From Hydrogenophilales bacterium 16-64-40 (lineage in GTDB: Bacteria > Pseudomonadota > Gammaproteobacteria > Burkholderiales > Thiobacillaceae): a DNA stretch of 50,515 nt. The stretch is from contig NCGX01000026.1 of NCBI GenBank assembly GCA_002256995.1, forward strand, positions 1 to 50,515, given 5' to 3'. The position numbers and the translations under genes were made by a program. The first letter of the stretch is position 1. Every line of letters begins with the position of its first letter. The notes below the pieces were generated by a model, which did not search any database, was not told the DNA's origin, and saw only the letters and a program-made list of their open reading frames with translations. Shown here piece after piece: positions 29,798 through 33,141 of the stretch.

Positions 29798-30138
29798 AAG
29801 CGGCCACCGGCTCGCACATCGGCACCGGCACCTGGCTGCTGCAGCACGCCACGGCCGTGGCGCTAGCGCTGGCGCTACCGGGGTTGGCAATTTATTTCCT
29901 GGCCGCCTTGCCGTTCGATTTTTCCGGCTGGCAGGCGCTGTTCGCGCCGCTTTGGCTGCGCGTGCTGATGCTGCTGACAATGGCAGCGCTCGCGCTGCAT
30001 GCCTGGGTGGGCATGCGCGACATCTTCATGGATTACGTCCATCACACGGGCCTGCGGCTAGCGCTGTATCTGGCGGTGATCGTCACCTTGGCGGGCAGTG
30101 TGGCCTGGCTGGCTGCCACCTTGTGGAGCACGGCATGA
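29794..30138 (+). CDS. sdhD: Succinate dehydrogenase membrane anchor subunit
   Basis: SdhD completes the membrane part of complex II. The 114-residue product has three predicted helices and the conserved [17 protein letters not shown] region, where His and Asp residues near the quinone site are expected. It overlaps sdhC and sdhA by 4 bases each (ATGA junctions), which indicates coupled translation of the three genes. Confidence 0.92.
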
Positions 30139-31889
30139 ACGCGCGCCGCTTCGACGCCCTCATCATCGGCGGCGGCGGCGCCGGCCTGCGCGCGGCGCTG
30201 CAGTTGGCGCGCTCGGATTACACGGTCGCGGTGGTGTCGAAGGTCTTCCCCACGCGCTCGCACACGGTGTCGGCGCAGGGCGGCATCACCGCCGCGCTCG
30301 CCAACGTCGACGACGACCGCTGGGAATGGCACATGTACGACACTGTCAAGGGCGGCGACTGGCTGGGCGACCAGGACGCGATCGAGTTCATGTGCCGCGA
30401 GGCGGCCAGCGCGGTGTACGAACTCGAGCATATGGGGCTACCGTTCTCGCGTCTCGACAACGGGAAAATTTATCAGCGGCCGTTCGGCGGCCAATCGAAA
30501 AACTTCGGCGGCGAACAGGCCACCCGCACCTGCGCCGCCGCCGACCGCACCGGCCACGCGCTCTTGCACACGCTGTACCAGCAGAACATCGCCCATCGCA
30601 CGCAATTCTTCGACGAATACTTCGCGCTCGACCTCGTGCGCGATGCCGACGGCTATTGCCTCGGCGTCACCGCCATCAGCATCGAGACCGGCGAGCCGCT
30701 GCTGATTGAGGCGCGCACGACACTCTTGGCCACCGGCGGGGCAGGGCGCGTGTTCGGCAACAGCAGCAACGCCATGATCAACACCGGCGACGGCCTCGGC
30801 ATGGTGCTGCGCGCCGGCCTGCCGCTGCAGGACATGGAGTTCTGGCAGTTCCACCCCACCGGCATTGCCGGCGTGGGTTCGCTGATTACCGAAGGCGTGC
30901 GCGGCGAGGGCGGCTATCTGTTGAACAAAAACGGCGAGCGCTTCATGGAACGCTACGCGCCGCATGCGAAGGATCTGGCCGGGCGCGATGTGGTGACACG
31001 CGCCATCGCCATCGAGATCGCCGCGGGCCGCGGCTGCGGCCCGCGGGGTGACTACGTCGACCTCAAGCTCGACCATCTGGGCGAGGCACTCATCGCCGAG
31101 AAGCTGCCCGGCATCCGCGACCTGTCGATCCGCTTCGCCGGCGTCGATCCGGCCCACGCGCCGATCCCCGTCGCGCCGACCGCGCACTACATGATGGGCG
31201 GCATCCCAACCAACCTGCACGGCCAGGTCGTCGCGCCTGCGCGCTTCGGCCCCGAGGAACCGGTGCCGGGGCTGTATGCCGTCGGCGAATGCGCGTGCGT
31301 GTCGGTGCACGGCGCCAACCGCCTCGGCGGCAATTCGCTGCTCGACCTCATCGTGTTCGGCCGCGCCGCCGGCAAACACATGCAGGAAACCCTGCGCGAC
31401 AACCCCTATCCGCGCCCGCTGCCGGAGAGCGCGGCCGAGCAAAGTCTGGCGAGGCTCGCGCGCTGGGAGCAGCCCGGCAGCGAACGGGTGGCGGCCATCA
31501 CCGACGATCTCAGGCGCATGATGCAGGCGCATGCCGGCGTGTTCCGCACCGACGCGGTGCTGCGCGAGGGACTGGAGAAATTGAATGTGCTTGAAGCACG
31601 TCTGGCGAACGCCGGTTTGCAGGACACCAGTCGCGTCTTCAACACCGCGCGTATCGAGGCGCTGGAACTGGAGAACCTGATCGGCGTGGCGCGCGCGACG
31701 CTGGTGTCGGCGATCCATCGCACCGAGAGTCGCGGCGCGCACACGCGGGAGGATTTTCCGGAACGCGACGATGCGAACTGGCTCAAGCACACGCTGTATT
31801 CGCGCGCGGGGGATCAGGTCGATGCCAAGCCGGTGCGGCTGAAGCCGCTGACGGTGGAGACGATCCAGCCGAAAGCGCGGGTGTATTGA
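30135..31889 (+). CDS. sdhA: Succinate dehydrogenase flavoprotein subunit
   Basis: SdhA oxidises succinate to fumarate with covalently bound FAD. The 584-residue product has the dinucleotide motif [14 protein letters not shown], the FAD-linking His43 in [10 protein letters not shown], the active-site region HPTGIAG with a following GEGGYLLN, and [14 protein letters not shown]. The ATG at 30135 was chosen from the sdhD overlap; the frame is open further upstream. Unlike the other junctions in this operon, its stop is followed by a 556-base gap with an inverted-repeat element before sdhB. Confidence 0.96.
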
Positions 31890-31928: not shown

Positions 31929-32005
31929 GGCTTCGCTTTTCGCCTTTGGGCGAGTTACTTTCTTTTGCTTCGCCAAAAGAAAGTAACCAAAGAAAAGGCG
32001 ACCCC
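31929..32005 (+). repeat. Left terminal inverted repeat of the sdhA-sdhB element
   Basis: The repeat runs from GGCTTCGC to GGCGACCCC. Inside it, CGCC-TTTG-GGCG (31941-31952) and a perfect 14-bp stem with a 6-base CTTCGC loop (31954-31987) form two consecutive hairpins. It begins 40 bases after the sdhA stop. Confidence 0.9.
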
Positions 32006-32327
32006 ACATCGCTGCCCTTCGGGTTCCCGATTTGGCGCGCACGGGCGGGCGCTCCACCAACTCGCCCTGGCAAGGCACACAAAACGTGCCTTGCTGCGGA
32101 GCTCGGACACGGTTCCGCAGCGCTGAAGGGGAACAACCCCCGGTGCCGCTCACGCGTAATGCCCGCTCCTCGCCAAGCACTGGCGCATGCAAGGAGGCCC
32201 CTTGTGTGTCGCCGAGAAGCGCAGCCGGCCGGGGAAGTGAGGTGCGGGGTGTCTGAGCCCGCCAGGGCGAGTTCCCGCACCGCCCCGGCTGGCGAGCATC
32301 GCAGGGGAGCCGAAGGCCGACACACCA

Positions 32328-32404
32328 GGGGTCGCCTTTTTTTTGGTTACTTTCTTTTGGCGAAGCAAAAGAAAGTAACTCGCCCTCAGGCGAAAAGCGA
32401 AGCC
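32328..32404 (-). repeat. Right terminal inverted repeat of the sdhA-sdhB element
   Basis: This is the inverted copy of the left end, with mismatches only in the small hairpin loop (two bases) and in the A/T-tract (one base). It keeps the 14-bp stem with loop GCGAAG (32346-32379) and the CGCC-CTCA-GGCG hairpin. The T8 tract at 32337-32344 belongs to the repeat. It ends 41 bases before the sdhB start. Confidence 0.9.
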
Positions 32405-32445: not shown

Positions 32446-33141
32446 ATGAAATTCCGCCTCTACCGCTACTCCCCCGAGTCCGGCGAAAAGCCCACCATGC
32501 AGGACGTCGAGCTCGACATCGAACCCGCCGGCAAGATGTTGCTCGACGCGCTGTTGGCGATCAAGGCGCAGGACGAGACGCTGTCATTGCGCCGCTCCTG
32601 CCGCGAGGGCGTGTGCGGGTCGGATGCGGTGAACGTCAACGGCAAGAACCGGCTGGCCTGCATCACGCCCTTGTCCGAACTGAAGCAGCCGATCGAGGTG
32701 CGGCCGCTGCCGGGATTGCCGGTGATCCGCGACCTGATCGTGGACATGGAGCCGTTTTACAAGCAGTACCGCTCGATCAAGCCGTGGCTGATCAACGACG
32801 AGCCCGAGCCCGAGGTCGAGCGCCTGCAAAGTCCGGCAGACCGCGCGCTGCTCGACGGTGCCTACGAATGCATCCTGTGCGCCTGCTGCACCACCGCGTG
32901 CCCGTCGTTCTGGTGGAATCCGGACACCTTCGTCGGCCCGGCCGGGCTGTTGCAGGCCTACCGCTTCATCGCCGACTCGCGCGACGAGGCGACCGCCGCC
33001 CGGCTCGACAATCTGGAAGACCCGTACCGGCTATATCGCTGCCGCGGCATCATGAACTGCGTCGACGCCTGCCCCAAGGGGCTGAACCCGACGGCGGCGA
33101 TCGGGCGCATCAAGTCGCTGTTGGTGAAGCGGCGTGTCTGA
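32446..33141 (+). CDS. sdhB: Succinate dehydrogenase iron-sulfur subunit
   Basis: SdhB carries electrons from FAD to quinone through [2Fe-2S], [4Fe-4S] and [3Fe-4S] clusters. All three cysteine sets are present in the 231-residue product: SCREGVCGSDAVNVNG with a later Cys, CILCACCTTACP, and CRGIMNCVDACPKG. The ATG follows an AAGAGG site (spacing 6). It is separated from sdhA by the inverted-repeat element but overlaps sdhE downstream by 8 bases. Confidence 0.96.
   Translation: MKFRLYRYSPESGEKPTMQDVELDIEPAGKMLLDALLAIKAQDETLSLRRSCREGVCGSDAVNVNGKNRLACITPLSELKQPIEVRPLPGLPVIRDLIVDMEPFYKQYRSIKPWLINDEPEPEVERLQSPADRALLDGAYECILCACCTTACPSFWWNPDTFVGPAGLLQAYRFIADSRDEATAARLDNLEDPYRLYRCRGIMNCVDACPKGLNPTAAIGRIKSLLVKRRV

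Follow-up and report, generated by a model that had tools for sequence, protein, structure and literature searches.

The window, the whole analysed stretch of 50,515 nt from Hydrogenophilales bacterium 16-64-40, carries sdhC, sdhD, sdhA, sdhB and a citrate synthase gene in this order on the + strand, with the Pfam identities Sdh_cyt (twice), FAD_binding_2 plus Succ_DH_flav_C, Fer2_3 and Citrate_synt. The sdhC/sdhD and sdhD/sdhA neighbours overlap, and the ORF downstream of sdhB overlaps the end of sdhB, while 556 nt lie between the sdhA stop and the sdhB start. A preliminary description of this DNA had placed a structured inverted-repeat element in the gap, and such an element does separate the two genes (Table 1). 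Its terminal arms (31929-32005 and 32328-32404) are 77 nt long and 96% complementary, with 3 mismatches and 322 nt between them. Each arm contains a perfect 14-bp hairpin (31954-31967/31974-31987 and 32346-32359/32366-32379), and the interior has perfect stems of 9 bp (32070/32086), 8 bp (32241/32274) and 8 bp (32093/32114); the ends, the 14-bp hairpins and the three or more interior stems of 8-9 bp described earlier were recovered. When the 476-nt element was folded as RNA, -317.4 kcal/mol was obtained, compared to a mean of -197.5 for 100 shuffled sequences (z = -16.6).

The 187-aa frame that runs through the element had no Pfam match, in agreement with the earlier view that it encodes no credible protein. 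No Sigma-70-like promoters were detected within the element. Searched against Rfam at the gathering score, the window and 20 loci gave 0 matches, with one sub-threshold match (E 0.56). The peptide LLSFASPKESNQ, which had been noted on both strands, is indeed encoded by both strands of the repeat. If our reading is right, short hypothetical proteins containing LLSFASPKESNQ would be translated repeat.

Table 1. Coordinates of the element, its predicted parts and the neighbouring genes in the window.
Feature	Position	Strand	Basis
sdhA, upstream neighbour; start set by eye inside a longer ORF	30135..31889	+	Pfam
Complete element with both arms, between sdhA and sdhB	31929..32404	.	77-nt terminal inverted repeat, fold z -16.6, aligned homologues
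Left arm core hairpin, 14-bp stem and 6-nt loop; proposed folded strand is the outward one	31954..31987	-	Strand by mismatch types
Linker of the left arm, proposed as third strand of a triple helix; AAAGAAAA on +, TTTTCTTT on the strand that folds	31989..31996	-	Mirror of stem purines
Left arm GGCGA, pairing with the hairpin loop (predicted pseudoknot)	31997..32001	-	Loop/linker covariation
Second long stem-loop of the left (type A) arm, boundaries approximate	32005..32135	-	
Second long stem-loop of the right (type B) arm, boundaries approximate	32190..32331	+	
Right arm TCGCC, pairing with the hairpin loop (predicted pseudoknot)	32332..32336	+	
Right arm third strand, TTTTTTTT in place of TTTTCTTT; one triple lost	32337..32344	+	Proposed
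Right arm core hairpin	32346..32379	+	
sdhB, downstream neighbour	32446..33141	+	Pfam

Distribution of the arms

The element was searched for in its own genome and in relatives. The own genome gave 15 matches at 7 places, which comprise the complete copy and six arm cores, with matches of each arm on both strands. A second, longer two-arm element with an internal ORF was seen in the same genome (L050, G000:C64, 1610-2890), flanked by inverted copies of a repeat of the CATTGCGAG..GCAATCCAG type. With 27 of the 40 relatives positive, matches were present in 28 of 41 genomes, and matches that cover most of the element were found at ten places in eight relatives, an eleventh (G020:C55) being in two pieces. 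Within the order, the exact core occurred in 29 of 300 genomes, and a backwards-pattern control in 0. A relaxed core, for which only purines were demanded at the variable stem and linker positions, was found at 196 places in 40 of the 300 genomes (control 0), with 62 places in one genome.

At least 118 core-containing stretches were present in the genome collection. Among the 80 listed of these, 5 were from Bacteroidota, 8 from Quinella, Selenomonadales or Clostridia, and the remainder mostly from Beta- and Gammaproteobacteria. Many of these records are MAGs with possible binning errors, a concern that does not apply to the 12 places on a complete plasmid from Fusobacteriota. This plasmid, pILYOP01 of Ilyobacter polytropus (L184, NC_014633.1), was the sole match when the window element was searched against plasmids. 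Its own arm stretch, used as the query, gave 18 places in the same plasmid and also matched two Pseudoalteromonas plasmids over 8% of the query. A phage collection searched with the element gave zero matches. Overall, related arms were seen in Proteobacteria, Bacteroidota and Bacillota and on one Fusobacteriota plasmid. No published account of the element was found in the open-access library searched, a scope outside which most subscription journals lie.

The preliminary interpretation was partly supported. A dispersed, non-autonomous element agrees with arm cores at 6 further places in the own genome, in the relatives and in other phyla, and with several relatives having the junction without the element; the proposed effect on the sdh transcript is a separate matter and is treated below.

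Fold of the arms and covariation of the core

Arms were looked for by script in 118 loci (from at least 118 stretches). In an arm, about 200 nt in length, a long stem-loop is combined with the core hairpin and with one or two stems further out, which by eye often resemble a second pseudoknot. Neighbouring arms formed 50 pairs, of which 37 were outward-facing, 7 inward and 6 tandem; in at least 3 of the 7 inward pairs (L079, L121, L132) a single hairpin had been counted once on each strand. The outward pairs spanned 343-660 nt in 31 cases and 1.0-2.1 kb in 6.

For the core alignment, 100 of the 116 oriented arms in 109 loci were used, without duplicates and contig-edge arms; 9 loci without AAAGAAAA near the stem were left out. 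Since the 11-bp stem was fixed by the search pattern, its constancy in this alignment is uninformative. The covariation score was 0.174 compared to 0.050 after shuffling and was reached by 0 of 500 shuffles, while two of the five measures of the same test lay within the shuffles (double-change pairs 95/500; pair types 31/500). The loop of the core hairpin is complementary to a stretch beyond the linker. Across 52 different combinations of loop and linker, 4.1 positions out of 5 were paired versus 2.89 in permuted combinations (0/2000), taking the best of three registers for observed and permuted alike. The loop hence pairs with the flanking strand with compensation, as in an H-type pseudoknot.

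The linker mirrors the purine strand of the stem and changes along with the stem. The mirror match across 20 stem cores was reached by 0 of 5000 permutations. Among the 144 arms listed from the 196 relaxed-core matches, the rule was exact in 140, over six stem sequences, and the arms were mirror-only in 136 cases, symmetric in 4, neither in 4 and direct-only in 0; the 52 matches outside this count lie in G299 (49), G307 (2) and G227 (1). For the linker to lie in the groove as a third strand, it must be mirror-symmetric to the stem purines; the mirror rule fits a triple helix, and the linker both mirrors and co-varies with the purine strand. Read on the opposite strand, the linker is a pyrimidine strand parallel to the stem purines, in a position that we take to be loop 1 of a telomerase-type pseudoknot. 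The four arms that break the rule include the right arm of the window copy, which has TTTTTTTT where related arms have TTTTCTTT, so that the proposed triple helix would contain one C+.G-C triple fewer.

Covariation of stem, loop and linker among the copies strongly supports the earlier claim of a structured element. The new point lies in the arm core, where these three parts change together in the way expected of a pseudoknot that includes a triple helix; the triple helix is proposed from this covariation.

The fold bears on the view that the element is an ordinary MITE, with a DDE transposase that would read the 77-nt ends as double-stranded DNA and folds that would be incidental. ERIC, YPAL and NEMIS are MITEs and are named in the background of PMC3733652; MITEs are also the subject of a review (PMC10969869). 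The element shares with MITEs of this kind a non-coding sequence, terminal inverted repeats and possible co-transcribed hairpins. It is also dispersed, short and multicopy (in its own genome one full copy, arm cores and the longer L050). However, incidental folds leave the loop/linker compensation and the mirror co-variation within arms unexplained, and the core is shared across phyla with structural covariation. A parental transposase was not seen, and the comparison of filled with empty sites revealed no target duplication in flanks that are too diverged to judge it. We regard the MITE view as quite unlikely.

Mismatches in the outer stems were of the A.C type in 26 cells and of the G.T type in 0, and become G.T or G.U when read on the opposite strand; 22 of the 26 are at one single pair. 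In the pseudoknot, the mismatch excess was 21 versus 7; a single column accounts for 10 and a mostly unpaired column for 6. The mismatch types and the pyrimidine linker parallel to the purines favour the outward-reading strand, and this narrow argument suggests that it is the folding one. Of 198 arms, 119 had a more stable long stem-loop (H2) on the outward strand and 70 a less stable one (mean -2.6 kcal/mol), a measure confounded by composition since the outside-flank control differs far more and in the opposite direction (169/191).

Occupancy of gene junctions and genes between the arms

SdhB was found in 12 of the 16 Thiobacillus-group genomes searched, and the sdhA-sdhB junctions of these 12 were compared. 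The two-arm element was present in 4, while 4 had a short junction with a gap of at most 37 nt. One was scar-like, with an 88-nt gap and an end-like remnant, two had a different palindromic repeat (G006, L187; G002, L186, viewed over the last 200 nt only) and one was unreadable. The repeat in G006 surrounds an ORF that by eye resembles a GIY-YIG endonuclease. The element search added two further filled genomes, G020 and G023, which brought the number of filled species to 6. The six elements ran from A-arm to B-arm in 4 cases and in the reverse direction in 2. Two arms among these copies are one base shorter, simultaneously in all three strands. The element is an optional insertion at this junction, which seems to be an insertion hot spot.

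The same junction bears on a possible domestication of the element by the sdh operon, as a cis-regulatory RNA that would set the SdhB:SdhCDA ratio. The junction is filled in 6 species, among which the pairing of the B arm is kept by two different loop/linker pairs, TCGCC:GGCGA and GTGGC:GCCAC. Against such a role are the 4 relatives with a short junction, the one with a scar-like remnant and the two with another repeat; moreover, both orientations occur between sdhA and sdhB, and the element is also found within another operon. Regulation of this kind is an unlikely explanation.

At a gspE/gspF-like junction compared in 23 genomes, both arms were present in 5, one arm in 2, and the search pattern was absent in 16, including three with gaps of 350-451 nt. 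Here, too, both orientations of the element were found. In Methylomonas, at a site between genes that by eye are ferredoxin-like (L238, L239, L240), the arms are swapped in one genome compared to two others; in a fourth genome the contig begins inside the element. Extra sequence was noted within the left core hairpin of L239. The filled and empty junctions and the two orientations indicate an element that is retained but dispensable and that changes its orientation; recombination between the arms could bring about such flips. No clean recent insertion was seen among the junctions compared. Based on crude gene calls, the context of 26 pairs was co-directional in 15, convergent in 9 and divergent in 2. 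The same crude calls led us to reject the arm as a 3'-stabiliser of the gene on its inner side, with solo arms divided 27 to 28 and no orientation bias; on the outer side 37 of 55 were convergent.

Within about 200-300 nt outside the arms (L066-L183), the outward strand was A/C-rich and G/T-poor, which fades by 300-500 nt. Within 200 nt of 167 arms, the GC skew was -0.12 to -0.19 and the AT skew +0.09 to +0.26. The GC skew extended over intergenic DNA as well as coding DNA in either orientation, and was missing from control regions. In the first 80 codons of sdhB, T at the third position amounted to 0-4% in the 6 filled and 7-16% in the 4 short junctions. No consistent difference in third-position T was found on the sdhA side of filled and short junctions, and no such difference was found in gspF with the element present or absent. 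As a footprint of past mutation events, the halo would fit the sdhB comparison but not the sdhA side and gspF.

Ten ORFs between arms, one per locus and picked by length from 21 stretches, were scanned with Pfam. DUF2971, DUF5677 and NYN were above the cut-off, one match was below it and six had none. In L153, L099, L090 and L075 the enclosed genes look like ordinary chromosomal ones, and the arms there may therefore be independent insertions. A 392-aa ORF between the arms of L158 (1063-2238) resembles by eye an IS30-family transposase and begins inside an arm. No mobilising enzyme was found; the ten ORFs matched no transposase family in Pfam.

A pseudoknot plus triplex is a feature of TnpB and Cas12 RNAs, and each arm might be an omega-RNA-like guide (as for TnpB/IscB) that reads outward past the element end, with the 3' flank as the guide and a nuclease in trans. 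The proposed folded strand does point outward, but the structure is present at both ends and, save the one NYN domain, the ten scanned ORFs had no recognised nuclease. A guide function is thus very doubtful.

The element could further be a giant relative of REPINs or TIRtrons, with inverted hairpin ends on which a tyrosine transposase of the Y1 (HUH) class, similar to RAYT or TIRYT, would act in single-stranded DNA. In PMC3733652, REPs, REPINs and TIRtrons are described as intergenic palindromes in inverted pairs near gene 3' ends. In that description they resemble the element also in a presumed single-strand recognition, and the paired inverted hairpin ends in a mostly co-directional or convergent context (15 and 9 of the 26 pairs) are REP-like. 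Among 27 Y1 loci, 5 have arms around or next to the Y1 gene; all 5 belong to G325-G328 (three Methylomonas), and the own genome has 3 Y1 matches. The RAYT-like Y1 genes are between the arms in L287 and L296 and beside arms in L277, L278 and L290. However, no arm is present at any of the own genome's 3 Y1 loci, and 8 of the 29 genomes of the order with the core are outside the PF01797 matches. Five of these 8, with up to 62 core places, and G028 were picked as Y1-negative and searched again, and had no Y1; the richest genomes (62 and 15 places) had none. Y1 genes are enclosed by arms in two Methylomonas copies, in one of them with its own nested repeat; the Y1 gene of L142 has a nested inverted repeat of its own. 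The arms of about 200 nt, with their pseudoknot and proposed third strand and at times with enclosed genes, also differ from the 20-40 bp units of the REPs, REPINs and TIRtrons as described there. A Y1 transposase as a necessary partner found no support, since PF01797 in 21 of 29 core-positive versus 185 of 300 genomes overall shows no clear association with the element. By analogy, a Y1 transposase would still be a natural candidate for the mover, and a giant REPIN or TIRtron relative is a possible, rather unlikely explanation.

Mobility and the sdh operon

We consider the element to be probably a non-autonomous mobile cassette that is recognised as a folded single strand. It would consist of two outward-facing structured arms, with nothing enclosed in the window copy. 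Each arm would have the long stem-loop and then the core, forming an H-type pseudoknot on the strand that exits the element. The core would be a polypurine/polypyrimidine hairpin with its loop paired to the flanking stretch, and the linker would be the third strand in the major groove of the hairpin (U.A-U / C+.G-C). An enzyme acting in trans may recognise this fold as RNA or ssDNA and move the cassette into gene junctions. Dispersal, arm pairing, covariation, optional occupancy, both orientations and the genes enclosed in some copies are the observed part of the cassette reading.

Integron gene cassettes are single genes next to an attC hairpin, a structured and possibly single-stranded site. 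Compared by description, the element is similar in that single genes adjoin a structured, possibly single-strand site, whereas it has two inverted arms and the integron cassette one attC. Telomerase RNA and the SAM-II riboswitch contain triple-helix pseudoknots. A triple helix is also described for the ENE of a plant retrotransposon RNA (PMC12501189). With these three the element would share a pyrimidine strand parallel to the stem purines, but it is bacterial and dispersed and has arms on both strands.

Between sdhA and sdhB the element is most likely a tolerated passenger. Folding predicts that, if it is co-transcribed, a very stable hairpin would be placed between the sdhA and sdhB messages. 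Cutting by RNase III and protection of 3' ends are known for other intergenic palindromes, and by analogy the hairpin could be cut by RNase III or could shield the 3' end of sdhCDA. An influence on sdh expression would be plausible.

Tentatively, the sequence comparisons may point to an undescribed gene-mobilising system that crosses phyla, whose ends would be read as a triple-helix pseudoknot in a single strand of RNA or ssDNA instead of as DNA sequence, and whose mover would belong to an enzyme family for which no such activity is known so far. If this is right, apparent intergenic clutter of many proteobacteria would carry a conserved triple-helix pseudoknot that at times encloses orphan genes. 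It might then represent a cassette system parallel to integrons, and a natural triple helix with candidate roles in transposition, RNA stability and processing.
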